A stretch of DNA of 51,124 nucleotides from a virus, in IMG/VR virus record IMGVR_UViG_3300022745_000043, positions 1-51,124 of that record; one strand, 5' to 3'. A program made the translations under genes and the position numbers. The notes below the pieces were generated by a model. It worked only from the letters and a program-made list of their open reading frames with translations, ran no database searches and was not told the DNA's origin. Each line of letters opens with the position of its first letter. Within the stretch, counting starts at the first letter, position 1. Positions 847 through 49,910 of the stretch are shown here, in pieces.

Positions 847-897
847 CAAGGCGAGGGAATCTCCGAGAACTTCCCACCAGATGTCAGAGGCCCGGCC

Positions 898-910
898 TAC
901 CGTCAGCGCA
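898..910 (+). promoter_or_regulatory. -10 element six bases before the DUF3263 ATG (leaderless start)
   Basis: TACCGT at 898-903 is followed by six bases and then ATG 910, so transcription would begin at or beside the start codon. The second DUF3263 copy has TACCTT at the same six-base distance (44197-44202, ATG 44209). Both also have TGTCAG ten bases upstream of the -10. Conservation of this spacing without a ribosome site supports a leaderless mRNA. Confidence 0.5.
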
Positions 911-1176
911 TGACCACCACCGCGACGCTCACCGAACACGAGCGCGCGATCCTGGACTTCGCGAAGCTGCGCTGGAACGGCGACGGCCCGAAGGAGGCCG
1001 CGATCCGCGTCGAGTTCGACTGCTCCGCGACCTCGTACTACCAGCAGCTCAACGCGCTACTGGACCGACCCGAGGCGCTCGAGGCCGAACCCGTGCTCGT
1101 GAACCGGCTGCGGCGGGTGAGGGAGCACAAGCGGCGCGCGCGCTCTGCAGCCTCGCCCTACGGCCAGACGCGCTGA
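910..1176 (+). CDS. DUF3263 protein, copy 1 with altered C-terminus
   Basis: 88 residues. LTEHERAILDFAKLRWNG, then KEAAIRVEFDCSATSYYQQL and LNALLDRPEALEAEPVLVNR match DUF3263, an actinobacterial helix-turn-helix-like family of unknown function. It is almost identical to the copy at 44209-44466 until residue about 72 (VREH). Beyond that the original end is replaced by RARSAASPYGQTR, because a VapBC45 cassette lies in the 3' end; the native tail survives as a remnant ending at 2346. The gene has no ribosome site and is probably leaderless. The conserved core is intact, so the protein may still work. A DNA-binding or regulatory role is likely but unproven. Confidence 0.85.
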   Translation: MTTTATLTEHERAILDFAKLRWNGDGPKEAAIRVEFDCSATSYYQQLNALLDRPEALEAEPVLVNRLRRVREHKRRARSAASPYGQTR

Positions 1177-1565
1177 AGCGGTCCCGTTCGGTACACGCCG
1201 AAGATGCCGTGGCCGGTCGATGCCGCCGCAACCCGGCCGATCTCGCTGGACAGCCGGTCGAACGCCGCCGCCTGATCGTTGCGTGACATCCGGCCATGCA
1301 TCAGACAGAAGGCCACGACCCCGCCGCGTTCTAGCGCGTCACTCTCAGGTTCGCGCGACCTGAGCTTCTTGTCCTTGGTCAGCACAGACCACCCGCTCAC
1401 CGCAGCCAACTCGATCCACTCGACGTCCAGGGCCTTCATCGCCCCGTCTCTGCCGTACACGTCCTCGAGGGTGTGCACGGTCCAGCCCATCGGCCGCAGA
1501 AGGGCCGCGACCGTGGGAGTCAAAGAGCGGTCGAGAAGGAACTCAGGCTGTGCGCGGGAGGACAC
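1158..1565 (-). CDS. vapC45: VapC45-type PIN-like toxin
   Basis: About 135 residues from GTG 1565, which lies 22 bases upstream of the end of the antitoxin gene, so translation is probably coupled. The N-terminal FLLDRSLTPTVAALLRPMG, the central DVEWIELAAVSGWSVLTKDK and the C-terminal YRTGPLQRVWP match the VapC45 PIN-like family, in which acidic residues bind metal for RNA cleavage. Partner VapB45 lies just upstream, the M. tuberculosis VapB45/VapC45 gene order. The 3' end overlaps the convergent DUF3263 gene by 19 bases. Family assignment is firm; ribonuclease activity is inferred. Confidence 0.8.
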   Translation of the reverse strand: MSSRAQPEFLLDRSLTPTVAALLRPMGWTVHTLEDVYGRDGAMKALDVEWIELAAVSGWSVLTKDKKLRSREPESDALERGGVVAFCLMHGRMSRNDQAAAFDRLSSEIGRVAAASTGHGIFGVYRTGPLQRVWP

Positions 1566-2235
1566 GCTGGTGCGCCCGGAGCGCAGCCTCGACGTCGGCC
1601 GGCTCGATCCGGAACTCCTCGGCAACCACGTTCACGGGCTCTCCGGCGTAGAACAAGTCCAGGACATCCTCGACGGCCGCCTTGGACCCGGCGAACACCG
1701 GCCGACCATAGTTGAACCGTGGGTCCAGAATGACCTCGGCCGAGTCGTAGCCCTTGAGTCGCAGCGTGTCAGCCAGGCCATCACTGCCGTAGCTGATGGC
1801 CTTGAGGTACGGGATCGCGAAGTCGGGCAGATACTGACGGTCTCGCGCCCGCTCCCATGCGCCACCCCGGCGCACCATCAGATCCAGCCCGCTGGCGGCG
1901 AGATCCTGTGACGCGAGGGCGTACTCGCCGCCGGCCTCCTGGCGCAGGGTGCCGACCGCTTCACGGATCTCCCGCAGCGGGATGCCGAAATCCCGGAAGG
2001 CGCGCAGTACGTGAGCCTCGACAACGCCAAGGAACGGCACCACCGGCTCGCCGTAACCGCGGGGAGCGTTGGCGTGCACCAGAGGTGCTCCGCCGGCGTT
2101 CTCGACCGTCCAACGCCTCACGGTGGTCCTGCGGCCACCCGTCGCGATCGCCGTGTGTGCCACCGTCAGCAACGGTGCCAGCTTCCGCCGGTCGATCATC
2201 CACCACACCCCCTCGGTCGCCTGGCTACTGACCAT
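1543..2235 (-). CDS. vapB45: VapB45-type DUF433 antitoxin
   Basis: 230 residues from ATG 2235, preceded by AGGTGG five bases upstream; the open frame further upstream is only antisense to the lipoprotein gene. Residues 50-100 contain VVPFLGVVEAHVLRAFRDFG, a MerR-like helical region. The C-terminal third has DUF433 features (VILDPRFNYGRPVFAGSK, then VVAEEFRIEPADVEAALR), an HTH used in autoregulation. Length and order match VapB45 of mycobacteria. It should bind and neutralise the VapC45 encoded 3' of it. The pair forms a cassette inserted into a DUF3263-lipoprotein locus that is uninterrupted at 44.2-44.9 kb. Confidence 0.8.
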   Translation of the reverse strand: MVSSQATEGVWWMIDRRKLAPLLTVAHTAIATGGRRTTVRRWTVENAGGAPLVHANAPRGYGEPVVPFLGVVEAHVLRAFRDFGIPLREIREAVGTLRQEAGGEYALASQDLAASGLDLMVRRGGAWERARDRQYLPDFAIPYLKAISYGSDGLADTLRLKGYDSAEVILDPRFNYGRPVFAGSKAAVEDVLDLFYAGEPVNVVAEEFRIEPADVEAALRAHQRVLPRTA

Positions 2236-2298
2236 GGTGCCACCTGGCACCCCCGTTGACCCGTTGCGGCCGCGTTCAACGCCTGACGGCGGCGGCTG

Positions 2299-2346
2299 CG
2301 GGAGCAGCGGCGCGCGGCGCGGTCGGGGCGCGTCAGGCCTGCGTGA
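2299..2346 (+). pseudogene. Remnant of the original DUF3263 3' end
   Basis: In frame to the TGA at 2344-2346 this stretch reads REQRRAARSGRVRPA, nearly the same as the intact DUF3263 end at 44415-44466 (REQRRATRSGRVRPA). It overlaps the lipoprotein stop exactly as in the intact copy. It marks the far edge of the inserted VapBC45 cassette. The sequence gggagca(caa)gcggcgcgcg occurs at both edges (about 1118-1140 and 2300-2316), a probable target duplication or recombination seam. Confidence 0.7.
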
Positions 2347-2734
2347 GGATGAGCTCGAGCCCCGAGTCGGGGTGGTAGCGCCAGACGGCCGAGTACGAGC
2401 CCCAGGAAGCCTCCTGCCGCCCGTCAAGAGCACGCGTCTGGTCGATGTCAGCCAACACGGAGTCCGGCGTGCTCAACGCGCGGAGCACGCAGGCGATCTG
2501 CTGGTAGCTCACCCCGTCGACGTCGTCGTTGCCTTTGCTGTCCAGGGTCACGGTCTTGCCGGAGTCCCCGACGGTGAGGCCGGGCTGGCTCCGGTTGAGA
2601 CAGTTCCAGGCCGCGGTTTCGAGGGCGGGCGTGGTGGGACTCGCCTCACTCGAAGAGTCTGTGGCCGGCCCGGCCTGACTCGCGCAACCGGCAAGCAGCC
2701 CCGAAGCCAAAACGACCAGCGCCCAGCGCTTCAC
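2333..2734 (-). CDS. Small lipoprotein, copy 1
   Basis: 133 residues from GTG 2734. It has a lipoprotein signal peptide (MKRWALVVLASGLLAGC, lipobox LAGC with acylated Cys near 17), a Ser/Thr-rich linker and a mature domain with two cysteines (WNCLNRSQPGL and QQIACVLRAL) and an acidic DSKGNDD stretch. It would be anchored outside the cytoplasmic membrane. It is about 97% identical to the lipoprotein at 44453-44854, which ends tail-to-tail with the other DUF3263 gene. Surface exposure of a phage-borne lipoprotein suggests lysogenic conversion or superinfection exclusion, but no domain of known function is visible. Confidence 0.8.
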   Translation of the reverse strand: MKRWALVVLASGLLAGCASQAGPATDSSSEASPTTPALETAAWNCLNRSQPGLTVGDSGKTVTLDSKGNDDVDGVSYQQIACVLRALSTPDSVLADIDQTRALDGRQEASWGSYSAVWRYHPDSGLELILTQA

Positions 2735-2790
2735 GACGAACCCCCGCTTCCCCCGGCCCCCGTGGCCGACGGTCGCAGCCTAGCGGCCGC

Positions 2791-3093
2791 TCAGACCGTG
2801 CGGCGGTAGACCGGGTACACGTGCCGGCCGACGGCGAGCACGCCGACCTGCGGCCAGTAGCGCGACACCCACATGTCCGGGGTGGCGTAGCAACGCTCGC
2901 CGCGCTTGGTCTTCGGCCGGTGCCAGTAGTGCGAGCGCCAGGTCGTCGTCACGCAGGGCTTGATCGAGGGCGCACCGGATGCCTGCGGGATGGCCGGGCC
3001 GGGGCCGTCGATGCTCCTCGACGCCTGAGCGGGGGCGATGACGGCGAGCGACGCGACCAGGGCCGCGAGAAGGACGAGGGCGATGCGCTTCAT
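2791..3093 (-). CDS. Small secreted protein
   Basis: 100 residues. The signal peptide MKRIALVLLAALVASLAVIA ends with a likely AQA-S cleavage near residue 24. The mature part is about 75 residues, basic and aromatic, with two cysteines (KPCVTTTWRSHYWHRP and GERCYATPDMWVSRYW) that could form a disulfide. I recognise no family. It lies 57 bases upstream of the lipoprotein gene on the same strand and next to the attachment site, a usual place for genes expressed in the lysogen. Confidence 0.65.
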   Translation of the reverse strand: MKRIALVLLAALVASLAVIAPAQASRSIDGPGPAIPQASGAPSIKPCVTTTWRSHYWHRPKTKRGERCYATPDMWVSRYWPQVGVLAVGRHVYPVYRRTV

Positions 3094-3115
3094 GGTGGCT
3101 CCGAGGCGTCGGGGC

Positions 3116-3330
3116 GTTGCCTAGGCAACACCCGGAGGCGGATTGGGCGTCGTCGGAGACACCCGGAGCAACCCCCGAAACGCCTCTGACCTGCGGCAAC
3201 GCCGAAACCTGAGCACGTCAGGACACGTCGTCAGCGGGTTCAAGTCCCGCCTTCCGCACCTGTATAGTGCCTGGTCAGAGGCCGTGTCGCAAGCACATCG
3301 GAGAGCCAGGCAACACCGCCAGGCAACACC
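3116..3330. repeat. Integrase arm-type repeats on both sides of the tRNA-derived core
   Basis: AGGCAACACC occurs left of the core at 3123 (AGGCAACACCCGGAGG, with inverted GTTGCCT at 3116-3122) and right of it at 3308-3317 and 3321-3330, the last followed by GGAGG. Short direct repeats flanking a core on both sides are typical of the P and P' arms bound by the N-terminal domain of a tyrosine integrase. A normal prophage end would carry only one arm, so this looks like an undivided attP. Confidence 0.6.
3208..3260 (+). other. attP-type core: 3' fragment of a leucine-type tRNA
   Basis: GCGGGTTCAAGTCCCGC (3234-3250) is a complete T arm with a TTCAAGT loop, followed by CTTCCGC (3251-3257), A and CC: the 3' acceptor strand and end of a tRNA. 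A matching 5' strand GCGGAAG is absent in the preceding 90 bases, so the tRNA is not complete. The acceptor sequence and the possible long variable arm upstream fit tRNA-Leu; a CTGAGCA loop-like stretch at 3209-3215 would be a GAG anticodon. It lies 100 bases upstream of the integrase, as an attachment core should. Confidence 0.65.
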
Positions 3331-3361
3331 GGAGGCCTCCCGGAGAACCCCGGAGGTAACC

Positions 3362-4522
3362 GTGGCGAGCATCCAGGCACGCCCCAGCGGCACCTACCGC
3401 GTCTCATTCCGCCTCGACGGCCGCCAGAAATCCGTGACCGTCGCGAGCATCAGCGACGCCCAAGCCGTCGTCCGACTCATCGACCGGTACGGCCCCGCCG
3501 ACGCCCTCGAGCTGCTCGCCGCACAGTCCACCGCGAGCGCCACCACCCCCACCGTCACCGAGGCCGCGCGCGCCCACGTTGCCCGCCTCACCGACGTGAC
3601 CGACGGAACCCGCCACGACTACGAGCGCATCATCGACCGCGCCCTGGACGGCCAACCCATCGGCGAACTGCCCGTGAACCTCGTCGGCCGCGAAGCCGTC
3701 GTGCGCTGGCACTCCTGGCTCCGCGCAGACCGCGGCCTGTCCAGCAAGACCATCCGCAACCACCACGCCCTGCTGTCCGCGACGTTCGCCACCGCCATCG
3801 CCGACGGCCACGCCACCACCAACCCGTGCCGCGGCGTGCGCGTCCCCCAGGTCGAGCGCGTGAGCGACAAGGTCTTCCTGTCCTCCGGCGAGCTCGCGAT
3901 CCTCACCGCCGCGATCCCCGTGCGCTACCAGCCGCTCATCATCACCCTCGCCGGCACCGGCCTGCGCTGGGGCGAAGCCACCGCGCTCGAGGTCGGCGAC
4001 GTCGACCTGGACGCCGCAGTCCCCCTGCTGCGCATCACGAAGGCGTGGAAGCGCACCGGCACCCAGGCCGCCGTCCTCGGCCCACCCAAGTCACGCGCCG
4101 GCGTGCGCACCGTGTCCCTGCCGCCCGAGGTCGTCGAGGCCCTCGCACCGCTGATGGACGGGCGCGCGACCAGCGACCTGCTGTTCACCGCGCCCGGCGG
4201 CGGACGCCTACGCCACGACCACTTCTTCGACCGCGTCTGGAAGCCCACCCTGGACAAGCTCAACTCCCGCCAGGACGAGCACGGCAACCCCATCACCCCA
4301 GCACTGGCCAAGCGACCCCGCCTGCACGACCTGCGCCACGGGCACGCCTCCGCGCTCATCGCCGCCGGCATCAACCTGCTCGAGGTCAAGGACCGGCTCG
4401 GGCACGAGTCCATCGACACCACCGTGGGCACCTACGGGCACCTCGTCCCGCAGGCCATGGCACGCACCGCCGCCGCCGCGTCCGCGTACCTCGTCCAGGC
4501 CGCCCCACAGATCGAGGCCTAG
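3362..4522 (+). CDS. int: Tyrosine site-specific integrase (tRNA-Leu-type site)
   Basis: 386 residues from GTG 3362, preceded by GGAGGT five bases upstream. An arm-binding domain (residues 1-55, SGTYRVSFRLDGRQKSVTVA) and a SAM-like core-binding domain (65-160) precede the catalytic domain. Visible catalytic residues are R202 (TGLRWGE), a lysine in the KSRAG turn, H322-x-x-R325-H326 (HDLRHGH), the later LGHESIDTT and nucleophile Y358 (TYGHL). It should insert and excise the phage at a tRNA gene matching the core just upstream. It converges with, and overlaps by four bases, the ImmA gene. Confidence 0.93.
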   Translation: MASIQARPSGTYRVSFRLDGRQKSVTVASISDAQAVVRLIDRYGPADALELLAAQSTASATTPTVTEAARAHVARLTDVTDGTRHDYERIIDRALDGQPIGELPVNLVGREAVVRWHSWLRADRGLSSKTIRNHHALLSATFATAIADGHATTNPCRGVRVPQVERVSDKVFLSSGELAILTAAIPVRYQPLIITLAGTGLRWGEATALEVGDVDLDAAVPLLRITKAWKRTGTQAAVLGPPKSRAGVRTVSLPPEVVEALAPLMDGRATSDLLFTAPGGGRLRHDHFFDRVWKPTLDKLNSRQDEHGNPITPALAKRPRLHDLRHGHASALIAAGINLLEVKDRLGHESIDTTVGTYGHLVPQAMARTAAAASAYLVQAAPQIEA

Positions 4523-4935
4523 GCCGCCAGCCGCGCCGCGATCGCGTCCTTCTCCTGGACCGTCAACGACCGGATCCGCCGGCGCACCACATCGACCGTG
4601 ACGTCGAGCTCGTGCGCGACCTCCTCCGGGCACAACGCCCACCGCAGCACATCCGCCAGGCGCTCGAGGTCGACCAGGCGCCGCGCCGCGAGGTCGTCCG
4701 CGTCACGCTCCATCCGACGGTCGAACCACTTCCGGCCCGTCTTCGCGTGGTCCAGGTCGACGTGCGCGATCTCGTGCGCGAGCACCGTGTTCCGCTCCGC
4801 CCGACCCAACGTCCGCTCGAGCAGGATCACCCGCTCGGCAGCGATCCAAGCGCCGCGCGCCGGGCGCAGGTCGACGCGTCCGATATGGATGTGCGGGTAC
4901 CGCTGTGCGGCGTCCTCCCAGGGCGAGTAGCCCAC
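4519..4935 (-). CDS. ImmA/IrrE-family metallopeptidase
   Basis: 138 residues. The zinc-binding motif HEIAH lies at residues 54-58 within NTVLAHEIAHVDLDH, and MERDADDLAARRL downstream supplies the third ligand region typical of ImmA/IrrE proteases. In ICEBs1 and many actinophages such proteins cleave the phage repressor after DNA damage. The gene follows the repressor on the same strand 18 bases downstream. It lacks a fused HTH, unlike IrrE of Deinococcus. Repressor cleavage here is inferred from position. Confidence 0.85.
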   Translation of the reverse strand: MGYSPWEDAAQRYPHIHIGRVDLRPARGAWIAAERVILLERTLGRAERNTVLAHEIAHVDLDHAKTGRKWFDRRMERDADDLAARRLVDLERLADVLRWALCPEEVAHELDVTVDVVRRRIRSLTVQEKDAIAARLAA

Positions 4936-4953
4936 TATGTCCCCCGTCGCTAG

Positions 4954-5289
4954 TCAGCCGCCGCGGATCTCCCGCGCCTTGCTCAGTGCTGCGAGGCGAG
5001 CAGCTGCTCGCACCTCTTCGCGCTCGACGTCGGACAAGCCCGAGAGAGCGTCGTCCGGGAGGTCGAGCATCACCCCGTCCGCATCGTTGTCGGCGGGTGC
5101 GACATCGCGCCCGTCAAGCGCCGCGACAAGGACGGCGGTCAGCGCGGCAATGGTGCGGGGGCGCACGGTGACGCCAGCCTCGGCCTTGCGGACGGTCTCT
5201 TCGCTCAGGCCGGCGCGGCGGCCTAGTTCGGCCTGCGACCAGTCGAGTGCCTTGCGCTGCTCGCGCAGCTCGTCGCCTGTTGTTGTCAC
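4954..5289 (-). CDS. XRE-family phage repressor
   Basis: About 111 residues from GTG 5289; an ATG at 5319 in frame is possible but would place the start inside the operator region. Residues 5-60 form an XRE helix-turn-helix (GDELREQRKALDWSQAELGR, then RRAGLSEETVRKAEAG). The C-terminal half is acidic (LPDDALSGLSDVEREEVR), a likely linker and dimerisation tail. It is transcribed away from the Cro-like gene, with four GGCAAA boxes between them. It is the probable immunity repressor of this unit and shares no operator sequence with the repressor at 48.2-48.7 kb. Confidence 0.8.
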   Translation of the reverse strand: MTTTGDELREQRKALDWSQAELGRRAGLSEETVRKAEAGVTVRPRTIAALTAVLVAALDGRDVAPADNDADGVMLDLPDDALSGLSDVEREEVRAAARLAALSKAREIRGG

Positions 5290-5314
5290 GTCCCGAGGAT
5301 GGCTCCAAACCTTC

Positions 5315-5466
5315 GGCAAAGTCCAATCAACCTAGGCAAATACGCGGCGTGTAGTTCGTTTCCGTTGGCACACATGGGCGATCTCTGTCGGGGGTATCGT
5401 CGCAGGCCAGGCAAACATTTGCCCGACTTCCAGCCTTGGAGACTGGACACACGGCAAACCTTTGCC
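5315..5466. promoter_or_regulatory. Operator set: GGCAAA-NN-TTTGCC palindromes
   Basis: Two perfect 14-bp palindromes, GGCAAACATTTGCC (5410-5423) and GGCAAACCTTTGCC (5453-5466), lie upstream of the Cro-like gene. Two half sites GGCAAA (5315-5320, 5335-5340) lie next to the repressor start. This two-sided arrangement around divergent promoters is the standard layout of a lysis-lysogeny switch. The region is clearly lower in GC than its neighbours. Confidence 0.8.
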
Positions 5467-5481
5467 CTACGTTGTCACCCA
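5444..5481 (+). promoter_or_regulatory. Early rightward promoter with operator in its spacer
   Basis: TGGACA (5444-5449), an 18-bp spacer containing the second palindrome, and TACGTT (5468-5473) form a sigma-70-type promoter ending seven bases before ATG 5481. With no ribosome site in front of that ATG, the transcript is likely leaderless. Repressor bound at 5453-5466 would block RNA polymerase directly. Confidence 0.6.
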
Positions 5482-5768
5482 TGAGCAGGAACTACGACAA
5501 CCAGCGGCCCAAGAGGCAGCCGCCCGTCGTCCCCCTCGCCGCCCTGCGCAAGTCGCACGGGCTCACCCAGCCCGACGTCCTGGCCCGCATCAAGGACGAG
5601 TCCGGCCGTACCTACACCGTCGGCGCGCTGTCCGCTCTCGAGGGCGGTCACCGGGGCGCCAGTGAGCACTTCCTCCAGGACATCGCCGCCGTCTTCGGCC
5701 TTGAGCCCGCAGACCTCTGGACCGACTACACCCCGCGCGCGCAGGCCGGCACCGAGGAGGCAGCGTGA
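5481..5768 (+). CDS. XRE-family Cro-like regulator
   Basis: 95 residues. After a basic N-terminus (RPKRQPP), residues 16-75 form an XRE domain: PLAALRKSHGLTQPDVLARI, then YTVGALSALEGGHRGAS, with helix DIAAVFGLEPADLW. It is the first rightward gene after the operators and so the likely Cro or early activator. It ends in an ATGA overlap with the next gene. The start has no Shine-Dalgarno and sits at the predicted transcription start. Confidence 0.78.
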   Translation: MSRNYDNQRPKRQPPVVPLAALRKSHGLTQPDVLARIKDESGRTYTVGALSALEGGHRGASEHFLQDIAAVFGLEPADLWTDYTPRAQAGTEEAA

Positions 5769-6139
5769 TGGATACGGCTGTCTACCGGCTCTTCGACGAG
5801 AACGGCGCACTCCTCTACGTCGGCATGAGTTCTGACGCCGAGGCGCGCATCCGCGCGCACCGCAGCACCTCGGTGTTCGGGTGGCGCATCCGTTCCACGA
5901 CGGTCAGCGACTTCCCCACCCGCGCGGCGGCCGCCGCTGCAGAGCGGGAGGCGATCCGCGACGAGGCTCCGCTGTTCAACGTCGTCGGCCGCTTCGGCGA
6001 CCGCTCCGCATGGACGTTGGAGCACTACCGGGCCTTCCTTCAGGTGGCCTCACCGCGCAGGTCGTCCAACGTTGTGCGCCGTCGCATCGAGCTGATCGAG
6101 GCCGAGGCCCGCACCCGCTTCGGCGCGGAGGTGGCGTGA
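5768..6139 (+). CDS. GIY-YIG-like nuclease domain protein
   Basis: 123 residues starting in an ATGA overlap. The N-terminus VYRLFDENGALLYVGMS fits the first beta strands of a GIY-YIG domain (VYRL for GIY, LYVG for YIG). It is followed by RIRAHRSTSVFGWRIRSTTV and a helix rich in Ala and Glu (AAAAAEREAI) holding the expected glutamate. The C-terminal 40 residues are basic. It could be a small endonuclease or a DNA-binding protein. Its place between the regulator and the excisionase-like gene suggests an early DNA function. Confidence 0.65.
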   Translation: MDTAVYRLFDENGALLYVGMSSDAEARIRAHRSTSVFGWRIRSTTVSDFPTRAAAAAAEREAIRDEAPLFNVVGRFGDRSAWTLEHYRAFLQVASPRRSSNVVRRRIELIEAEARTRFGAEVA

Positions 6140-6369
6140 TGGACGAGCGCACCGAGCTCTTCGACGCGACCGAGGCCGCCCGCCGCCTGGGCATGACGGA
6201 GGAGTTCGTCAAGATCCGCGCTCGTCGCGGCGAGATCCCGTCCCGCCTCATCGGCCGGTACCGGCGCTTCACCCAGGCCGACCTCGACGAGTACGTCGAC
6301 GCCTGCAAGGTCGGCGGCGACTCCGGTCCGCGCATCACGCGCGTCACCCGCGGCAGGCGATCCGCGTGA
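6139..6369 (+). CDS. xis: Excisionase-like helix-turn-helix protein
   Basis: 76 residues. LFDATEAARRLGMTEEFVKI, then RARRGEIPSRLIGRYRRFTQ and a DLDEYV helix form a compact MerR/Xis-type winged HTH, the excisionase fold common in actinophages. It starts in a TGATG overlap with the GIY-YIG-like gene. The tail (RITRVTRGRRSA) is basic. It is the best candidate recombination directionality factor for the integrase at 3362-4522; a purely regulatory role is the alternative. Confidence 0.75.
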   Translation: MDERTELFDATEAARRLGMTEEFVKIRARRGEIPSRLIGRYRRFTQADLDEYVDACKVGGDSGPRITRVTRGRRSA

Positions 6370-6380
6370 CCCCCGAAGCC

Positions 6381-6459
6381 CCGGTCAGAACTCCCCCGGC
6401 CTGACCGGCCAGGTGCGGGCGCCTCGTGCGCATCCCCCCGTTAGCGGGGCGCCCGCACC
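6381..6459 (+). ncRNA. Tandem C-rich-loop hairpins, 6C-RNA-like
   Basis: Hairpin 1 pairs CCGGTCAG (6381-6388) with CTGACCGG (6401-6408) around the loop AACTCCCCCGGC. Hairpin 2 pairs GGTGCGGGCGCC (6412-6423) with its complement (6448-6459) around a loop containing CATCCCCCCG. Two adjacent stem-loops with runs of C in the loops are the hallmark of actinobacterial 6C small RNA. The second phage carries the same pair at 49405-49488 with compensatory stem changes. There is no U-tract after it. Assignment as RNA is supported by covariation; its role is unknown. Confidence 0.6.
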
Positions 6460-6471
6460 ACCTACGTCCAG

Positions 6472-6538
6472 ACAAGCCAATGGACCGGCTCCCCGCGAAG
6501 AGATCACCGGCCCATCGACAACGAAGGGAGTGTCCCAC
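6472..6538 (+). promoter_or_regulatory. Conserved 53-bp leader upstream of the small-gene operon
   Basis: The 53 bases from ACAAGCCAATGGACCGGCTC onward (6472-6524) are identical to 49501-49553 in the second phage, although the following genes differ. The block contains an ATG (6480) opening a frame MDRLPAKRSPAHRQR that in the second phage stops directly before the next start codon. It also contains CCGG repeats able to pair. It may be a promoter, a leader peptide or an RNA element; identity exceeds that of nearby coding DNA. Confidence 0.55.
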
Positions 6539-6823
6539 ATGGACACCGCCGAGAACGACCGCATCGCCTGGGAGGCGGGCGCCTGGTGCGACCTGCTGAT
6601 GTCCGAGCTTGCCGCGAAGTCGGCGCGTCACACCGTCACCGCCCGCGCTCGCTTGTTCCTCGACGCGGGGCTCCCGCTCGCGAGGGTCCTCGACGCGCTC
6701 AAGATCGCCGAGGACGAGTGGGACGCGCGCATCGCCGACCACGACGCCACCAAGGCCGCGAACCGTGCGTTCCACGCCGAGCGAGAGGCCGCTGCCACGG
6801 CCGTCCCCGAGTTGATCGCATGA
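6539..6823 (+). CDS. Hypothetical helical early protein
   Basis: 94 residues from ATG 6539 with AGGGAG upstream. It is predicted mostly alpha-helical (WEAGAWCDLLMSELAAKSAR, RLFLDAGLPLARVLDALKIA, then a charged Ala-rich helix). I recognise no family. The second phage lacks this gene at the matching place: the conserved leader is followed directly by the counterpart of the next gene, so this one is an insertion or a loss. It overlaps its downstream neighbour by ATGA. Confidence 0.75.
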   Translation: MDTAENDRIAWEAGAWCDLLMSELAAKSARHTVTARARLFLDAGLPLARVLDALKIAEDEWDARIADHDATKAANRAFHAEREAAATAVPELIA

Positions 6824-7152
6824 CCGCCGGCGCCATCACGATGCTGCTGCTGGCCGTGGTGCTCGCGCTCGCCGCGATCCACGTCCGGTCCATGCGCCGG
6901 ATCGACGCCGGCCGCGCCGCGGCCCTCAACTCCGCCCTGGCGATCGTGGAGGACTCGCATCGCCGCCTCTTCTTCGCCCGCGACTTGCGCGACCAGGCCG
7001 TCGTGGAGAACGTCGACCTCTTGCACCAGCTGCAGGAGGCCCGCGCCCGCATCACCGCGCTCGAGGCCGAGCCCACCGCCGCCGAAGTCGCCGTCGTCGA
7101 GCAGCTCGCCGCCACCGCGTTCCGGGGCCCGTTCGGGGGGCAGCAGCTGTGA
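6820..7152 (+). CDS. Small membrane protein with coiled coil
   Basis: 110 residues. One N-terminal transmembrane helix (MLLLAVVLALAAIHV, about 8-22) is followed by a long charged coiled coil (DLLHQLQEARARITALEAE) and the tail FRGPFGGQQL. It is homologous to the protein at 49566-49910, which differs mainly at the N-terminus. It is coupled by ATGA upstream and GTGA downstream. Function unknown; a membrane-attached helical rod resembles spanin-like or exclusion proteins, but the early position argues against lysis. Confidence 0.75.
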   Translation: MTAGAITMLLLAVVLALAAIHVRSMRRIDAGRAAALNSALAIVEDSHRRLFFARDLRDQAVVENVDLLHQLQEARARITALEAEPTAAEVAVVEQLAATAFRGPFGGQQL

Positions 7153-7301
7153 CCGCCACCGTCGCCCTGGTCCGCCCGATCTGGCTGAGGTTCACCGCCT
7201 CCGCGACACCGACCGACGTCGCCGACGTCATCGCCCTCGCCGCCGGCCAGCCCGTCGCGCTCGTCGTCGACGTCATGCCCGCGATGGAGGTGGCGTCGTG
7301 A
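7149..7301 (+). CDS. Conserved 50-residue early protein
   Basis: 50 residues from GTG 7149 (GTGA overlap) to TGA 7301. The sequence is VALVRPIWLRFTASATPTDV, then a short helix and VALVVDVMPAMEVAS. It is virtually identical to the product of 49907-50059 in the second phage, including the coupling at both ends, which supports a real gene despite its size. No family is recognised. Confidence 0.7.
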   Translation: MTATVALVRPIWLRFTASATPTDVADVIALAAGQPVALVVDVMPAMEVAS

Positions 7302-7597
7302 ACGGCTTCCTCGCCCTCGTCGGCTTCGTGACGCTGCTGTTCCTCGCCGTGCTGGGACTCGCCGCGCTCGCGCTGTGGCTACTGCGCGACAACGACCCCG
7401 GCGTCATCGACATCACCGACCGCATCGAGAGCTCTCGCGGCCACGTGAAGGTGGTCGAGCGGCCCGCGCCGGCCGACCCCGACACGGACGCGGGCCACTC
7501 CACCGTCGGCCACGTCCTCGGTGGCGCCCTGGTCCTGGCCGTCGTCGTGGCCCTGCTCGCGCTGTGCGGCGCGGTCGAGACGGGGTGGACGTCGTGA
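7298..7597 (+). CDS. Two-helix membrane protein
   Basis: 99 residues. Transmembrane segments lie at about 3-27 (FLALVGFVTLLFLAVLGLAA) and 74-92 (LVLAVVVALLALCGAV), joined by an acidic soluble loop (DNDPGVIDITDRIESSRGH). Both ends are translationally coupled. The protein at 50056-50355 in the second phage is about 95% identical. Early phage membrane proteins often act in superinfection exclusion or altered host envelope state; that is inference only. Confidence 0.75.
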   Translation: MNGFLALVGFVTLLFLAVLGLAALALWLLRDNDPGVIDITDRIESSRGHVKVVERPAPADPDTDAGHSTVGHVLGGALVLAVVVALLALCGAVETGWTS

Positions 7598-7932
7598 CCA
7601 CCCACCGCATCGACATCGACACCGCCTACGTCGACCACGTCCTGAGCGGCATCAAGCCCTTCGAGGTTCGCCGCAATGACCGCGCCTACGTGGCGGGCGA
7701 CTACCTCCTGATGCGCGAGGTCGGTGACACGGGTATCGAGGACGGCCACTGGGGCGAGCCAGACCAGGCCGACGGCCACTCGTGCTCTCGGTGTCGCACT
7801 CGCCGTTACGTGCGGGCGCGGATCACCTACGTCTACTCGGGCGACCCGCGCTGGACCGACCTGACCCCCGGCGTCGTCGTTCTCGGCCTCGGTGGCGTCG
7901 GGATCCCGCTCCCCGTCGGCGGTGCGTCGTGA
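7594..7932 (+). CDS. DUF3850/ASCH-like RNA-binding-fold protein
   Basis: 112 residues from GTG 7594. HRIDIDTAYVDHVLSGIKPF, then EVRRNDRAYVAGDYLLMRE and the late RARITYVYSGDPRW with VVVLGLG match DUF3850, an ASCH/PUA-like beta barrel common in phages. The usual order of a lysine-containing helix, a charged EVR(K/R)NDR turn and a closing strand is present. An extra Cys pair (CSRCRTRR) interrupts the barrel. The matching place in the second phage holds an unrelated 77-residue gene. ASCH domains bind RNA or modified bases; the target here is unknown. Confidence 0.75.
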   Translation: MTTHRIDIDTAYVDHVLSGIKPFEVRRNDRAYVAGDYLLMREVGDTGIEDGHWGEPDQADGHSCSRCRTRRYVRARITYVYSGDPRWTDLTPGVVVLGLGGVGIPLPVGGAS

Positions 7933-8201
7933 GCCTCGACGAGGCCGCGTTCGCTGAGGCCGTGCAGACGGCGGCTGAGGCGTGGGCTGACCGGGGACTC
8001 GGCGCCGGCGTCCGCGTCGGGCGGGCTGCCGCAACCGCCGCCGTCGCCGCCGCGTGGCCGGTCATCGAGCGGGCCGTCCTCGCGGAGGCCGCCGCGAAGC
8101 TGCGAGAGCTGGCCAACGCGCAGCGTCTGAACTCCGTCACCGGCGTCGCCCGTCTCACAGCGTTCGACTCTGCCGCCCGCATCATCGAGGCCACCCCGTG
8201 A
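7929..8201 (+). CDS. Hypothetical Ala-rich helical protein
   Basis: 90 residues, GTGA-coupled. It is nearly all helix, with the core WPVIERAVLAEAAAKLRELA and end ARIIEATP. The core and end are shared with the protein at 14999-15238 (WPVIERAVLAEAAAEVRALY, DIIEAAS), so the phage carries two copies of this family. The DNA match is strongest over the WPVIERAVLAEAA codons. Function unknown. Confidence 0.7.
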   Translation: MSLDEAAFAEAVQTAAEAWADRGLGAGVRVGRAAATAAVAAAWPVIERAVLAEAAAKLRELANAQRLNSVTGVARLTAFDSAARIIEATP

Positions 8202-8434
8202 CCGCCTTCGCCGCCACCTGGGCGGCCCTATGGGCGGGTGCGGCGTTCCTGTCGGGGACGGCGCTGGGCTACCGGCTCCGTCGTCCCGCCGTCGTCGAGA
8301 CGTGCGGGGACGTGACCACCGTGCACGGACTCGGCCGCGACCTCGTCGCGGAGTGCCAGCGGTCGGCGGGCCACGACGGTCGCCACGTCGGCATGGACGG
8401 CGAGGCCACGGTCGAGTGGCCGGTGACGGCATGA
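8198..8434 (+). CDS. Small membrane protein with Cys pair
   Basis: 78 residues from GTG 8198. One N-terminal transmembrane helix (FAATWAALWAGAAFLSGTAL) is followed by a short domain with two cysteines and histidines (ETCGDVTTVH, ECQRSAGHDGRHVG). The relative at 50582-50836 shares the helix almost exactly and the CxxxAGHxGxHVG motif but differs between them. Coupled at both ends. The Cys/His pattern suggests metal binding or a disulfide outside the membrane; function unknown. Confidence 0.72.
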   Translation: MTAFAATWAALWAGAAFLSGTALGYRLRRPAVVETCGDVTTVHGLGRDLVAECQRSAGHDGRHVGMDGEATVEWPVTA

Positions 8435-8535
8435 ACCGCCCCGTGCCCGTCGTCGGCACCGCCCTCGGCATCGGCCGTGCCGGGGAACGCCTCGCCGGCC
8501 GACTCGGGCGACCGTGCGGGAGATGGTGGCTGTGA
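8431..8535 (+). CDS. Possible 34-residue microprotein
   Basis: ATG 8431 overlaps the previous stop (ATGA), and the frame ends at TGA 8533-8535, overlapping the next GTG. The peptide is basic and Gly-rich (GTALGIGRAGERLAGRLGRP). Support comes only from overlap at both ends; there is no counterpart in the second phage. Confidence 0.4.
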   Translation: MNRPVPVVGTALGIGRAGERLAGRLGRPCGRWWL

Positions 8536-8942
8536 GCAGCCTCCGCCGCGCCCTGCGCACCGTGTGGGACTTCCTCGGCGAGGACTTCACCGAGGTCTGT
8601 CCCTGCCCTGACTGCGAGCGCACCGCTGCGCGCCTCGAGCAGGCCACGCACCAGCCGCATCCCGCTGTCCTGCACGCCGAGCGACGTGCGGCCACCGACC
8701 ACGCCGGGGAGGTGCGCCCCCAGCCGTCGACCTTCCCGGCTGGCGCGAGCGACATGCCCACCTCCCCGGCGTGCCTGCCCTGCGCGGCCAAGGACCGGCG
8801 CATCGCCGACCTCGAGGCCGACCTTCTCGTCGTCCGCGCGCACCGCCACCGCATCGAGGACGACCGCCTTCACCTGATCCACGCGAGCGCCGCCGCTGAT
8901 CCCGGCCCCGCTCCCACGACTGAGGAGACCGCGCATGTCTAG
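8532..8942 (+). CDS. Cys-containing coiled-coil protein
   Basis: 136 residues from GTG 8532. It has an early CPCPDC cluster, a Pro-rich middle and a second pair CLPC followed by a charged helix (KDRRIADLEADLLVVRAHRH). Two CxxC-type pairs suggest a zinc-binding coiled-coil protein. The ATG at 8523 is an alternative start. The gene overlaps parB by eight bases. No family recognised. Confidence 0.65.
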   Translation: MSSLRRALRTVWDFLGEDFTEVCPCPDCERTAARLEQATHQPHPAVLHAERRAATDHAGEVRPQPSTFPAGASDMPTSPACLPCAAKDRRIADLEADLLVVRAHRHRIEDDRLHLIHASAAADPGPAPTTEETAHV

Positions 8943-9648
8943 CGCCCGCGCTGCCGGGGGCCTGGCCCGGATCCCGCTCGAGGAGATCAACCCGAACCCC
9001 GCGAACCCGCGCCGCGATGTCGGTGACGTCTCCGAGCTTGCGGACTCGATCCGGGAGCGCGGCCTGATCCAGCCCCTGGTCGTGCACCCACGCGCCCGTG
9101 GTGGCTACGAGCTGCTGTCCGGGCACCGCCGGTACGCGGCTCTCGTGCACCTGGACGCGGCCACCGCGCTGTGTCTGATCGCGCCGGCGCGGAAGGACGT
9201 CGAGGCGCTGCAGATCATGCTGGTGGAGAACGGCCAGCGTGAAGCCCTGTCCCCGATGGAGGAGGCGCGCGCGTTCGACCGCCTCCTGAAGATGGGCCTG
9301 AGCCAGGCCCAGATCGCCAGGGGGGTGGGCCGCTCTCAGACCCACGTGTCGCACCGCCTCGGCCTCATGCACCTCACGCCCCGGCAGCAGGCCGAGGTAG
9401 ACGCCGGTGAGCTCCGTGTCGTGGACGCCGTGCACGCGTCCCGAGCCGCGCGCGGCCGCGCCGATGACACGCACTTCACCGGATGGCACCTGGGCAAGCA
9501 CCACCCCCTGGCGGAGGACGTGCGTGACGCCTGCGCGACGGCCGGGCATCCGCGGGTCCGCCGCGTCGGCGGCGTCGGGTGTGGTGCCTGCTGGGAGGTC
9601 GCGATCCGCGCCGACGAGCGGCGCCACGCGCGCGGTGGTGCCGCATGA
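8935..9648 (+). CDS. ParB/Spo0J-like nuclease/CTPase-fold protein
   Basis: 237 residues. The ParB/Srx N-domain is clear: IPLEEINPNPANPRRDVGDV, then SIRERGLIQPLVVHPRARGG and the GHRRYAALVHLD motif. A helical region with an HTH follows (LSPMEEARAFDRLL, LSQAQIARGVGRSQTHVSHR). The C-terminal 60 residues hold two cysteines. No ParA gene is next to it, so plasmid-type partition is unlikely; solitary ParB-like proteins in actinophages are thought to act as regulators or nucleases. The gene cut at the right edge (50833-51124) is its close relative. Confidence 0.88.
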   Translation: MSSARAAGGLARIPLEEINPNPANPRRDVGDVSELADSIRERGLIQPLVVHPRARGGYELLSGHRRYAALVHLDAATALCLIAPARKDVEALQIMLVENGQREALSPMEEARAFDRLLKMGLSQAQIARGVGRSQTHVSHRLGLMHLTPRQQAEVDAGELRVVDAVHASRAARGRADDTHFTGWHLGKHHPLAEDVRDACATAGHPRVRRVGGVGCGACWEVAIRADERRHARGGAA

Positions 9649-40077: not shown

Positions 40078-41265
40078 ATGAGCAAGCGCGTGATAGCCAT
40101 GTCCACCGCTGTCGTCATGGCGACGGCCTGGGCGATCGCGACACAGACATCAGCTGACGCCGTCACCAATCCGCTGCCTCTGTCGCCCAGCGGGAAGGTC
40201 GCGATCGTCGAGGCCAACATCGAGGAACTCTTCAACGACACCGACATCAACGACAACTGGGACATGAAGCACCTCTCCTACCGGGTGCAGAACATCCTCA
40301 ACACGATGAAGGCGTCCGATCCCTACATCTACGCCCCGGACATCGTTCTGCTGTCGGAGACGACCAAGGAGTCGTCCGAGTCCTTGGCCACTCAGCTCAC
40401 TGCCTACACCGGTTACACCTATATCCCGGTCGCGAACGCAGCGACCAGCAATCAGACGCTGCACAACGCTATGGAGTCGGAGTCCACGACACAGGCCGAC
40501 GTGCAGCGCGAGACCGCGATCTTGGTCAACACCTCCACCATGGACCTGGTGACCACATCGACGAGCCCCGCATCCTCGCCCCTCACAATGCCGTCCTCCG
40601 AGGTATACGGCGGCACGCTCGACGCTGCCTGGGTGACCCTCCGTCAGTCGACGGCGCTTGTGCAGGAGAGGAGCTCCGGGGCACTGTTCCGCGTCTACAG
40701 CGCCCACTTCCGGCCCGAAAGTGTCGTCTGGCCCCACGAGGAGCGCACCGCCGAGTGGGCGCGGTTCCTGAAGACGCGCTCCGACGACGCCGACATGCTC
40801 CCCGCCGGCGCGAAGATCATCATCGGCGGCGACTTCAACCGCAGGCCCTGCACCGTCTCCTACTACCGAACAGACGGCGACGACAACGTCAACGACAACG
40901 GGGTGAGTTGCTCGACTAGTGGCAGCACCGCGTCGGGGTACTGGACCAGGTTCACGGGCAGCCAGACAGACACCCCGTACACCCTGACGCCCGCGCTCGA
41001 CGCGTCGAGCAGCCGGGTCGGCGTGGACAACGTCTTCGCCAACATGACGCTGCTTACCGGTACTGACGACTACGACTACAAGACGTACTACAACGACGAC
41101 AGCCACCCGACCTACTTCAAGACGTCCACCGATCTGACGAAGTGCCAAACGGAGTTCTACGACAAGGGGCTCTCGTCGTCCGCTGGCGCAGACGCCATCG
41201 CGGGCTGCTACGAGCGGTACTACTCCGACCACGAGTTCGTGTACGCCGCCTACAGCACCACCTGA
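40078..41265 (+). CDS. Secreted endonuclease/exonuclease/phosphatase-family protein
   Basis: 395 residues. A Sec signal peptide (KRVIAMSTAVVMATAWAIAT, cleavage near residue 28) precedes an EEP fold with its landmarks in order: VEANIEEL (Asn), LLSETTKES (metal-binding Glu), YSAHFRPES (His), GGDFNRRP near 250 (Asp, Asn), VDNVFA near 315 and YSDHEFVYA at 382-390 (Asp-His pair). EEP proteins cleave DNA, RNA, lipid phosphates or inositol phosphates; substrate cannot be told. Third-position GC is lower than in the phage core, suggesting recent capture. As phage cargo it could alter host surroundings or degrade extracellular DNA. Confidence 0.82.
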   Translation: MSKRVIAMSTAVVMATAWAIATQTSADAVTNPLPLSPSGKVAIVEANIEELFNDTDINDNWDMKHLSYRVQNILNTMKASDPYIYAPDIVLLSETTKESSESLATQLTAYTGYTYIPVANAATSNQTLHNAMESESTTQADVQRETAILVNTSTMDLVTTSTSPASSPLTMPSSEVYGGTLDAAWVTLRQSTALVQERSSGALFRVYSAHFRPESVVWPHEERTAEWARFLKTRSDDADMLPAGAKIIIGGDFNRRPCTVSYYRTDGDDNVNDNGVSCSTSGSTASGYWTRFTGSQTDTPYTLTPALDASSSRVGVDNVFANMTLLTGTDDYDYKTYYNDDSHPTYFKTSTDLTKCQTEFYDKGLSSSAGADAIAGCYERYYSDHEFVYAAYSTT

Positions 41266-42856: not shown

Positions 42857-43252
42857 CAGAGCGTGATGAAACGTCCGTTCAGCATCAGCCGGACGGCCAC
42901 CGCCGCCCTAGCCTCCTCGACTCCGGCGGATGCAACCATGCCCGTGGCCAGGCCCGCCGGGACGTTCACGGTTCCGGGGGGTGGCCGTGTGCGGGCGGCG
43001 CCCCTCGCCTGCCAGTGAAGGGCGCCGCCACCCACGTCACGCCAGCGAGCGAATCTCCCGGCGCCGCCGTAGGCTCACAGCGCCGGCGCGAGCCCCTCTC
43101 CCCCGTGGGTAGCTCGCGCCGGCATCTGCATGTCCGATCCGCAGAACTGGGCCGATCAGGGGACACGCACGACGCCGACCGGGGGCCGGCGGTCGGTTTC
43201 CCCGGCTAGAGTGACGCTAGGCCTAGGCACGCATAGGGGTGGTGTAGGAGCG
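42857..43252. promoter_or_regulatory. 396-base intergenic region with tandem hairpins and promoter for the Panacea pair
   Basis: No confident gene. It holds the hairpin GGCGGCGCCC (42994-43003) with 43020-43029. A perfect 12-bp hairpin GCCGGCGCGAGC (43082-43093) with 43112-43123 follows, whose loop CCCTCTCCCCCGTGGGTA has the same C-rich core as the 6C-like hairpins. A TAGAGT box lies near 43206, and a CTAGGCCTAG palindrome near 43217 could be the operator of the Panacea operon. Confidence 0.5.
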
Positions 43253-43693
43253 ATGGCCTCAGTGCTCGACGTGGCGGCGTACATCCTGGCCAAGCAGGAC
43301 CAGATGACTGCGATGAAGCTGCAGAAGCTCAGCTACTACTCGCAGGCCTGGCACCTGGTCTGGGAAGAGCGGCCTTTGTTCCCGGACCGGATCGAAGCCT
43401 GGGCGAACGGTCCGGTCGCACCCGCGCTCTATCAGGCCCACCGCGGCCAACTGATCGTGTCGACGATCCCCACGGGCCGACCCGCGAACCTTACGCCGAG
43501 TGAGCAGGAAACCGTTGACGTCGTCCTGCGCGGCTATGGCAGCCTCACTGCTGCGCAACTGAGCGACCTCACCCACCGAGAGTCACCTTGGCTCGACGCG
43601 CGCGCAGGCCTCGCACCCGGGCAGCGCAGCAGCACCGTGATCGAACACTCCGCAATGCGCGAGTACTACGAGGGACTTCTCGGCGACAGCTGA
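43253..43693 (+). CDS. Panacea-domain (SocA-like, DUF4065) antitoxin
   Basis: 146 residues from ATG 43253 with TAGGAG upstream. The DUF4065/Panacea pattern is clear: SVLDVAAYILAKQDQMTAMK, LQKLSYYSQAWHLVWEERPL, FPDRIEAWANGPVAPALYQA, and the late THRESPWLDAR with REYYEGLLGD. Panacea proteins are antitoxins able to neutralise many unrelated toxins, with the toxin usually encoded beside them. Here the next gene starts within its stop codon (TGATG), the standard pair layout. Confidence 0.87.
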   Translation: MASVLDVAAYILAKQDQMTAMKLQKLSYYSQAWHLVWEERPLFPDRIEAWANGPVAPALYQAHRGQLIVSTIPTGRPANLTPSEQETVDVVLRGYGSLTAAQLSDLTHRESPWLDARAGLAPGQRSSTVIEHSAMREYYEGLLGDS

Positions 43694-44154: not shown

Positions 44155-44208
44155 TCGCCCGTCCCTCACGACAGGGTCTGTGTCAGACGCTCGCCCTACC
44201 TTCACCGT

Positions 44209-44466
44209 ATGACCACCACCGCGACGCTCACCGAACGCGAGCGCGCGATCCTGGACTTCGCGAAGCTGCGCTGGAACGGCGACGGCCCGAAGGAGGCCGC
44301 GATCCGCGTCGAGTTCGACCTCTCCGCGACCTCGTACTACCAGCAGCTCAATGCGCTCCTGGACCGGCCCGAAGCGCTCGAGGTCGAACCTGTCCTCGTG
44401 AACCGGCTGCGACGGGTGAGGGAGCAGCGGCGGGCGACGCGGTCGGGGCGCGTCAGGCCTGCGTGA
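44209..44466 (+). CDS. DUF3263 protein, copy 2 (intact)
   Basis: 85 residues from ATG 44209, with -10 TACCTT six bases upstream and no ribosome site (likely leaderless). LTERERAILDFAKLRWNGDG, KEAAIRVEFDLSATSYYQQL and LNALLDRPEALEVEPVLVNR are DUF3263. The C-terminus REQRRATRSGRVRPA is the native end that is displaced by VapBC45 in copy 1. It ends tail to tail with the lipoprotein gene, with 14 bases of overlap. Confidence 0.87.
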   Translation: MTTTATLTERERAILDFAKLRWNGDGPKEAAIRVEFDLSATSYYQQLNALLDRPEALEVEPVLVNRLRRVREQRRATRSGRVRPA

Positions 44467-44854
44467 GGATGAGCTCGAGCCCCGAGTCGGGGTGGTACCG
44501 CCAGACGGCCGAGTACGAGCCCCAGGAAGCCTCCTGCCGCCCGTCAAGAGCGCGCGTCTGGTCGATGTCAGCCAACACGGAGTCCGGCGTGCTCAACGCA
44601 CGGAGCACGCAGGCGATCTGCTCGTAGCTCACCCCGTCGGCGTCGTCGTTGCCTTTGCTGTCCAGGGTCACGGTCTTGCCGGAGTCCCCGACGGTGAGGC
44701 CGGGCTGGCTCCGGTTGAGACAGTTCCAGGCCGCGGTTGCGAGGGCGGGCGTGGTGGGACTCGCCTCACTCGACGAGTCTGTGGCAAGCCCGGCCTGACT
44801 CGTGCAACCGGCAAGCAGTCCCGCAGCCACCACGACCAGTGCCCAGCGCTTCAC
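44453..44854 (-). CDS. Small lipoprotein, copy 2
   Basis: 133 residues from GTG 44854. Lipobox LLAGC in KRWALVVVAAGLLAGCTSQA, then the same mature domain as copy 1 with scattered substitutions (DADGVSYEQIACVLRAL). The pair DUF3263 plus lipoprotein is a shared cargo unit of two adjacent phage genomes. Membrane-anchored; function unknown. Confidence 0.82.
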   Translation of the reverse strand: MKRWALVVVAAGLLAGCTSQAGLATDSSSEASPTTPALATAAWNCLNRSQPGLTVGDSGKTVTLDSKGNDDADGVSYEQIACVLRALSTPDSVLADIDQTRALDGRQEASWGSYSAVWRYHPDSGLELILTQA

Positions 44855-44934
44855 GTTCGACCCCCGTTCCCCCGACCCCCGTGGCCGGCGGTCGCAGCGT
44901 AGCGAGCGGTGGGCGGGGTGGGTAGGGCGTGCCC

Positions 44935-45528: not shown

Positions 45529-45530
45529 CG

Positions 45531-46808: not shown

Positions 46809-46850
46809 CGTCGCACCTTCTCGTCCACCACTGACACGGAGCCGATCTAC

Positions 46851-47823: not shown

Positions 47824-47832
47824 GACGAGGCC

Positions 47833-48670: not shown

Positions 48671-48713
48671 GTCTCCCACTCTCGCGCGACACGCCGAGTG
48701 GTGTCCACGAAAT

Positions 48714-48851: not shown

Positions 48852-48853
48852 GT
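48825..48853 (+). promoter_or_regulatory. Early rightward promoter of the second phage
   Basis: TTGCGC (48825-48830), a 17-bp spacer and TACGGT (48848-48853), which overlaps the right operator half site, point to the Cro-like gene starting at 48867. Placement matches the operator-in-promoter design of the first phage. Confidence 0.5.
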
Positions 48854-48866
48854 TTGCGAGGTCAGC

Positions 48867-49145
48867 ATGGATCACGACCACAGGGACACCGGGAGGTTCT
48901 GGGTGAGACTCATCAGCGCCCGCGTCCTGGCCGACTACATGACGCACCGCGAGGAGACCGTCCGGTCGCTGGCGACGAAGGTCGGCTGCTCGCCCTCCAC
49001 CGTCGGACACCTCCGCTCGGGCAAGCGGAACACGTGCAAGCCGGCCGTCGCCAAGGCCATCGAGAAGCAGCTCAACGCACCCCCCGGTTCTCTCTTCGTC
49101 GCGCAGGTGTCTCGCGTCGCGAGCAACACGGGTCGTGCGGCATGA
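48867..49145 (+). CDS. XRE-family Cro-like regulator, second phage
   Basis: 92 residues from ATG 48867; GTG 48903 is an alternative with GGGAGG upstream. The HTH reads SARVLADYMTHREETVRSLA, then TKVGCSPSTVGHLRSGKRNT, with a supporting helix AIEKQLNAPPGSLF, a form common in actinophages. First rightward gene after the operator. It overlaps the next start by ATGA. Confidence 0.8.
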   Translation: MDHDHRDTGRFWVRLISARVLADYMTHREETVRSLATKVGCSPSTVGHLRSGKRNTCKPAVAKAIEKQLNAPPGSLFVAQVSRVASNTGRAA

Positions 49146-49336
49146 CCGTCACGACTATCAGCTACACACTGGCGACCGCGTCGGCCGCGACAGGCCTGTC
49201 CGAGCGGAGCATCGCCGACGCGATCCGCCGCGGCGACCTCATCGCCCACTACGTGACAGACCGGCCGTCGATCCTCGCCGGCGACCTCGCCGCATGGATC
49301 GAATCCGGCCCGACCGAGAAGAGGCGGTCGGCATGA
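49142..49336 (+). CDS. xis: Excisionase-like HTH protein, second phage
   Basis: 64 residues. ISYTLATASAATGLSERSIA, then DAIRRGDLIAHYVTDRPSIL and DLAAWIES form a MerR/Xis-type domain. It occupies the same place as the 6139-6369 gene, just before the C-rich hairpins, and is the likely partner of the tRNA-Lys integrase. Confidence 0.75.
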   Translation: MTVTTISYTLATASAATGLSERSIADAIRRGDLIAHYVTDRPSILAGDLAAWIESGPTEKRRSA

Positions 49337-49395: not shown

Positions 49396-49404
49396 CCACC
49401 GACC

Positions 49405-49488
49405 CCGGTCGGTGCGTGTCTCCCCCGTCGCGCAATCGACCGGCCAGGTGCGGCGTCCCATGTCTCCCCCGTCGTGGGGCGCCGCACC
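49405..49488 (+). ncRNA. Tandem C-rich-loop hairpins, 6C-RNA-like, second phage
   Basis: Hairpin 1: CCGGTCG (49405-49411) with CGACCGG (49437-49443), extended by GTGCG/CGCGC, exposes TGTCTCCCCCGT. Hairpin 2: GGTGCGGCG (49447-49455) with CGCCGCACC (49480-49488), extended by CCC/GGG past one bulged T, exposes ATGTCTCCCCCGTCGT. Compared with 6381-6459 both arms of each stem have changed while pairing is kept, and the spacer CCA between hairpins is the same. Confidence 0.62.
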
Positions 49489-49500
49489 AACTACCGCCAC

Positions 49501-49565
49501 ACAAGCCAATGGACCGGCTCCCCGCGAAGAGATCACCGGCCCATCGACAACGACAGGGAGTCTAG
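49501..49565 (+). promoter_or_regulatory. Conserved leader, second phage
   Basis: 49501-49553 is identical over 53 bases to 6472-6524. The short frame from ATG 49509 (MDRLPAKRSPAHRQRQGV) stops at TAG 49563-49565, directly before ATG 49566, which would allow translational coupling. Confidence 0.55.
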
Positions 49566-49910
49566 ATGACTCGGGAGACGCTCGAGGTCGCCTTCGTCCT
49601 CGTGTTCCTGGCCGTAGTGCTCGCGCTCGCCGCGATCCACGACCGGTCCATGCGCCGCCGCGACGCCGGTCGCACCGCGCCCCTCAACACCCTGCGCGCG
49701 ATCGCGAAGGACTCGCACCACCGCCTCTCGGTCGCCCGCGACATGCGCGACCAGGCCGTCGTGGAGAACATCGGCCTCCTGCATCAGCTGCACGAAGCCC
49801 GAGCCCGCATCACCAGCCTCGAGGCCGAGCCCTCCGCCGCCGAAGTCGCCGCAGTCGAGCAGTTCGCCGCCACCGCGTTCCGGGGCCCGTTCGGGGGGCA
49901 GCAGCTGTGA
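49566..49910 (+). CDS. Small membrane protein with coiled coil, second phage
   Basis: 114 residues. The transmembrane helix (AFVLVFLAVVLALAAIHDRS) and coiled coil (LLHQLHEARARITSLEAEPS) match the 6820-7152 protein, ending in the same FRGPFGGQQL. It follows the conserved leader directly, without the 94-residue gene present in the first phage. Confidence 0.75.
   Translation: MTRETLEVAFVLVFLAVVLALAAIHDRSMRRRDAGRTAPLNTLRAIAKDSHHRLSVARDMRDQAVVENIGLLHQLHEARARITSLEAEPSAAEVAAVEQFAATAFRGPFGGQQL

Follow-up and report, generated by a model that had tools for sequence, protein, structure and literature searches.

A 6C-like tandem hairpin element with C-rich loops at the head of the early operon in two tandem prophages

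Introduction

Cis-acting RNA hairpins such as lambda nut and HK022 put are found early in phage operons, and C runs are not their signature. The closest described RNA with open C runs is the 6C RNA (RF01066; B11 of mycobacteria), in which two neighbouring hairpins expose them. One C-rich loop of this RNA, whichever of the two, is enough in M. abscessus for repression of a messenger that has six G in its 5′-UTR (PMC10470900). Linkage of 6C to Ms1 has been described (PMC6582537), and extra 6C genes, which do not have this linkage, occur on mycobacterial plasmids and chromosomes (PMC9569102). C-rich loops are also used to target messengers by S. aureus RNAIII and similar regulators (PMC3765725). 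No phage-encoded 6C-like RNA was found in the literature that we searched.

The window analysed here is the whole of a 51,124-nt virus record, which holds two related prophages in tandem (882-9226 and 44181-51124), the second being incomplete as the record end truncates it. We describe a tandem hairpin element with C-rich loops that is present once in each prophage, and weigh what it might do.

Results

The paired prophages and their early operons

The homologous DNA blocks of the two prophages are given with the other features in Table 1. In both, the integrase and an M78 (ImmA-like) metallopeptidase lie to the left of a cro-like gene, which is followed by an excisionase-like gene, the tandem hairpins, a leader and the early genes, which extend to a ParB-like gene. 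Between the prophages, the modules for immunity (repressor, cro, xis and the orientation of the integrase) are swapped and the early operon is retained; the genes upstream of the two copies of the element, including the excisionase-like ones, have no homology at the DNA level. Only the first prophage has a GIY-YIG endonuclease gene (5765-6139) between its cro-like and excisionase-like genes; about 55 bp of it are 87.5% identical to Arthrobacter phage Tbone. The second prophage has an ion-channel gene (47086-47823; Ion_trans_2, 3.9e-15) in its immunity region, where it adjoins the M78 peptidase gene. The nearest relative of the terminase is that of Gordonia phage GAL1 (54.6%), which makes an actinobacterial host likely; the phage is a temperate one, most probably infecting actinobacteria.

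Table 1. Coordinates of the two copies of the element, their neighbours and the homologous blocks, in positions of the window.
Feature	Position	Strand	Details
Excisionase-like HTH_17 gene upstream of copy A	6139..6369	+	Pfam HTH_17 3.8e-9; PHROG excisionase 1.5e-8
Copy A, hairpin 1	6381..6408	+	8-bp stem, loop AACUCCCCCGGC (C5)
Copy A, hairpin 2	6412..6459	+	16-bp stem, loop GCGCAUCCCCCCGUUA (C6)
Copy A, conserved leader	6460..6530	+	Ends in ribosome-binding site GGGAG
Copy A, weak hairpin 3 within the leader	6480-6515	+	CUCCCC in loop
Copy A, start-codon hairpin (predicted)	6530..6546	+	GUGUCC(CACAU)GGACAC over ATG 6539
First gene after copy A	6539..6823	+	94 aa; no known family; missing behind copy B
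Possible loop target CGGGGGG	7135..7140	+	8 nt before a GTG start, same operon; kept at 49893-49898; putative
Excisionase-like gene upstream of copy B	49142..49336	+	PHROG excisionase/regulator 0.002
Copy B, hairpin 1	49405..49443	+	About 14 pairs, one bulge, loop UGUCUCCCCCGU (C5)
Copy B, hairpin 2	49447..49488	+	16-bp stem, loop UCUCCCCCGU (C5)
Copy B, conserved leader	49489..49560	+	With ribosome-binding site GGGAG
Copy B, start-codon hairpin (predicted)	49556..49572	+	GAGUC(UAGAU)GACUC over ATG 49566
Homologous blocks, prophage 1 = prophage 2	882-1140 = 44181-44436; 2289-2785 = 44409-44904; 6403-6531 = 49438-49561		DNA comparison
Further homologous blocks, prophage 1 = prophage 2	6850-7642 = 49608-50400; 8198-8402 = 50582-50798; 8947-9226 = 50845-51124		DNA comparison

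Two tandem hairpins in each copy

The first-pass annotation of this DNA had reported two adjacent C-loop stems at 6381-6459, right after a xis-like gene, and both observations held. In this copy (copy A), stem 1 begins about 11 nt past the stop of the excisionase-like ORF, pairs perfectly at 8 of 8 positions (CCGGTCAG/CTGACCGG, 6381-6388/6401-6408) and closes a 12-nt loop with five C (AACTCCCCCGGC). After a spacer of 3 nt, stem 2 (6412-6427/6444-6459) forms 16 pairs, 12 of them Watson-Crick followed by four that include two G-U, around a 16-nt loop with six C (GCGCATCCCCCCGTTA). The MFE predicted for the hairpin pair is -54.3 kcal/mol (z = -5.2), with no shuffled sequence equally good, and the predicted ensemble leaves the C runs about 96-100% unpaired, except for the last C of loop 2. 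Lone C5-loop hairpins are ordinary by chance in this GC-rich window (7 observed vs. 3.9 expected). As a tandem pair, perfect 7-bp C5-loop hairpins occur once in the window and in none of 60 Markov-shuffled windows, and such a pair is also absent from the other phage and bacterial loci retrieved for comparison. Another lone C-loop hairpin (43082-43123; 12 bp), with loop letters identical to those of copy B (UCUCCCCCGU), sits about 130 nt upstream of a SocA-like Panacea antitoxin gene (43253-43693).

A second, diverged copy (copy B) lies at 49405-49488 in the second prophage. Missed at first reading, as was the conserved leader, it was spotted through a listing of all C-loop hairpins, in which the one at 49447-49488 has the flanks of copy A. 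A covariance model built from copy A only retrieves the whole of copy B (41.0 bits, E 7e-7), its remaining matches being copy A itself, the reverse strand of copy A (E 0.014) and one match at chance level. Immediately 5′ of copy B there is an extra C6 run (GGTGGTCCCCCCG...CCACC, 49375-49403), which may make an additional weak hairpin.

Covariation and strand

Covariation, which had been named as a test of the element, is present between the two copies, and these two copies are the only ones known, so that it rests on a single pair: the stems differ by two double changes and by three that are one-sided, and a further pair is gone from both arms. In the model alignment, every lettered pair holds in both copies, and sliding the partners lowers the paired share to 33-48% of cells. 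Stem 2, compared ungapped from its base, has 13 changes with all 16 pairs intact, an outcome that was reached in 1 of 200,000 trials when the changes were placed at random and in 1,132 of 200,000 (0.6%) when the changed positions were kept fixed. In a column-shuffle control, which with two rows has little power, 129 of 500 shuffles reach the observed value.

The G-U pairs give the + strand better folding in three of the four hairpins (for hairpin 2 of copy A, -37.5 kcal/mol vs. -31.0 kcal/mol on the - strand), which favours an RNA over a DNA site. A DNA element, be it an operator, a ParB site or a recombination site, whose inverted repeats are read as duplex, would suit the ParB-like gene downstream, the excisionase gene upstream and the island of conservation; however, the G-U stem pairs would be mismatches in a DNA palindrome and, given this together with the strand preference, we consider it very improbable. 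A + strand RNA is the best reading of the covariance model, the kept pairs and the strand preference, and the predicted structure of the tandem element is well supported.

Comparison with 6C RNA

The 6C likeness proposed in the first-pass annotation stands insofar as 6C is the top-scoring of 4227 Rfam families for both copies, with an alignment from end to end, and both have its two adjacent hairpins. The scores, 24.0 bits for copy A and 25.8 bits for copy B, are far under the gathering score of 47, and the covariance-model check that had been suggested thus gave no match at this threshold. Presumed chance matches to RF01066 reach 29.6 bits in unrelated genomes, in a genome search that is coarse at its first pass, omits both copies and serves only as a gauge of chance scores; a relaxed Rfam scan of the whole window, whose filters are stricter on long input, also omits both. 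The 6C pattern of six or more C in each loop is found in neither copy, copy A having C5 and C6 and copy B having C5 and C5. With scores so far below 47 bits, the element should not be filed as 6C: as far as its sequence goes, it is 6C-like, not a proven member.

Upstream and downstream signals were scanned as well. The stretches 6200-6545 and 49250-49570 contain no -10 motif (sigma-70-like TANNNT), and scans of 5300-6560 and 48650-49600 gave neither a U-tract nor a terminator-like site; hairpin 2 of copy A is followed by ACCTACGTCC, not by the U-tract that, with a G+C-rich hairpin, makes an intrinsic terminator. This bears on the possibility that the element is a trans-acting 6C mimic or a true 6C relative, excised from the early transcript or made from its own promoter, that pairs with G-rich ribosome-binding sites on phage or host messengers. 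The Rfam ranking, in which the C-loop sRNA Scr3202 is the runner-up for copy B when + strand bacterial models are compared, would agree with such an RNA, as would the strong loop-complementary sites before several starts, e.g., ACGGGGGA at an M78 peptidase gene, and the precedent of additional 6C genes in mycobacteria, plasmid-borne as well as chromosomal (PMC9569102). Nevertheless, it seems unlikely to us, since its scores lie within the range of presumed chance matches, the scanned regions hold neither a -10 motif nor a U-tract, and the conserved 72-nt leader would be left without a role.

The same scans speak to the possibility that the early operon opens with an element for transcription attenuation or antitermination, comparable to lambda tR1/nut or HK022 put and acting on RNA polymerase. 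Two adjacent, strong-stemmed hairpins located after cro and xis and before the delayed genes are what such an element would look like. The missing U-tract and terminator-like site, together with C runs whose conservation it does not explain, make this quite unlikely. Where the first-pass annotation had offered either a 6C mimic or a gate for the following operon, position and conservation favour gating over a mimic acting in trans.

The conserved leader

The homology island at the element (6403-6531 = 49438-49561) is 85.4% identical between the prophages, and the flanking sequence is non-homologous on both sides, which implies that the element was retained while its neighbours were exchanged. 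Retention of hairpins and leader amid swapped neighbours suggests that the element itself has been under selection. The leader past the hairpins is better conserved than the stems: a 72-nt stretch (6453-6524 in copy A) is 94% identical between the copies and ends in the ribosome-binding site that serves the early gene behind it. Intercistronic stability hairpins are common, and strong stems right behind a stop codon and ahead of a ribosome-binding site could be of this kind, protecting the downstream messenger or setting the ratio between xis and the genes after it, with C loops that are incidental. We find this decidedly improbable, as C runs are kept in four of four loops despite altered loop lengths and flanks, and conservation is higher in the leader downstream than in the stems.

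Behind each leader, the start codon is covered by a predicted hairpin. The two hairpins are unrelated in sequence, and a comparison of 35 starts puts the genes behind the leaders in first and joint second place for the strength of this hairpin.

Loop complementarity and a proposed mechanism

Loop 1 of copy A includes ACUCCC, which matches as a complement the GGGAGU found at the ribosome-binding site some 70 nt past the hairpins, and CUCCC in copy B is complementary to the GGGAG of its leader. The strong site ACGGGGGA precedes the first prophage's M78 peptidase gene, in the opposite operon, and the gene at 40078; the latter (40078-41265) is of the endonuclease/exonuclease/phosphatase family (Exo_endo_phos) and has this sequence at its ribosome-binding site. 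The idea of one loop target common to the two M78 peptidase genes was given up, as the start of the second gene is unsure, and a fold in which a C loop holds the ribosome-binding site of copy B was rejected, being lost once more downstream sequence is included. In the predicted ensemble, the ribosome-binding site has mainly local partners and not the C loops, and G-rich sites that fit a C run are many; both points count against the pairing proposed below.

Taken with the top-ranked start-codon hairpins, the complementary sites suggest a leader that sets the translation of the early operon. We tentatively lean towards a structured cis RNA leader in the rightward early transcript, 6C-like and directing its C loops to G-rich ribosome-binding sites. 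The two tandem hairpins would hold runs of C5-C6 open in their loops, with the leader of about 70 nt and the ribosome-binding site behind them, and the loops could pair with G-rich ribosome-binding sites. The first of these targets would be in cis, the GGGAG of the next gene and the CGGGGGG of a gene in this operon, and such pairing may keep down or adjust translation of the early genes behind the element in relation to cro and xis. Contact between C loops and ribosome-binding sites is a putative step, which the predicted folds do not favour over local pairing. The principle would be that of 6C RNA, built into the messenger.

Searches for further copies

Searches of viral contigs, genomes, phages and plasmids turned up no third copy. 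Searching viral contigs with the excisionase, integrase, first-gene and early-operon proteins gave no homologue; the ParB search returned only relatives of 37-46%, which do not carry the element. As an exact DNA pattern, the leader has no match in viral or genome contigs, and blastn gave weak chance pieces only in phages and nothing in plasmids. The loop pair TCTCCCCCGT...TCTCCCCCGT occurs in four viral contigs, which fold differently and look like chance, and the best match of the copy A model in other phage records, Mycobacterium phage Ageofdapage (24 bits), has no C loops; both were rejected.

Discussion

A broader and, in our estimation, unlikely proposal is that the two copies belong to a new phage-borne family of 6C-like tandem C-loop RNAs, which would time phage genes by the actinobacterial pairing of C loops with G-rich sites. 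Such RNAs would act on the early operon in cis and, after release, on host messengers and on lysogeny genes like the M78 peptidase in trans. If phages do use C-loop elements as operon switches, an abundant and poorly understood actinobacterial RNA principle would be tied to the decision between lysis and lysogeny. Copies A and B are natural variants with intact stems and differing loops, ready for a reporter comparison.

With the 6C RNA, the phage element shares the two neighbouring hairpins that expose C runs. It differs in being embedded between phage genes, an excisionase-like gene on one side and the prophage early operon on the other, in having a conserved leader behind it and no promoter or terminator seen, and in carrying C5 in three of the four loops. 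Scr3202 (RF02833), a Streptomyces sRNA, is likewise built of tandem hairpins with C-rich loops; copy B matches it at 20.6 bits against a cut-off of 52, and copy A is not listed. RNAIII of S. aureus is an unrelated trans-acting RNA of Firmicutes. HK022 put and lambda nut resemble the element as RNA hairpins of an early operon, whereas the C runs belong to the phage element described here.
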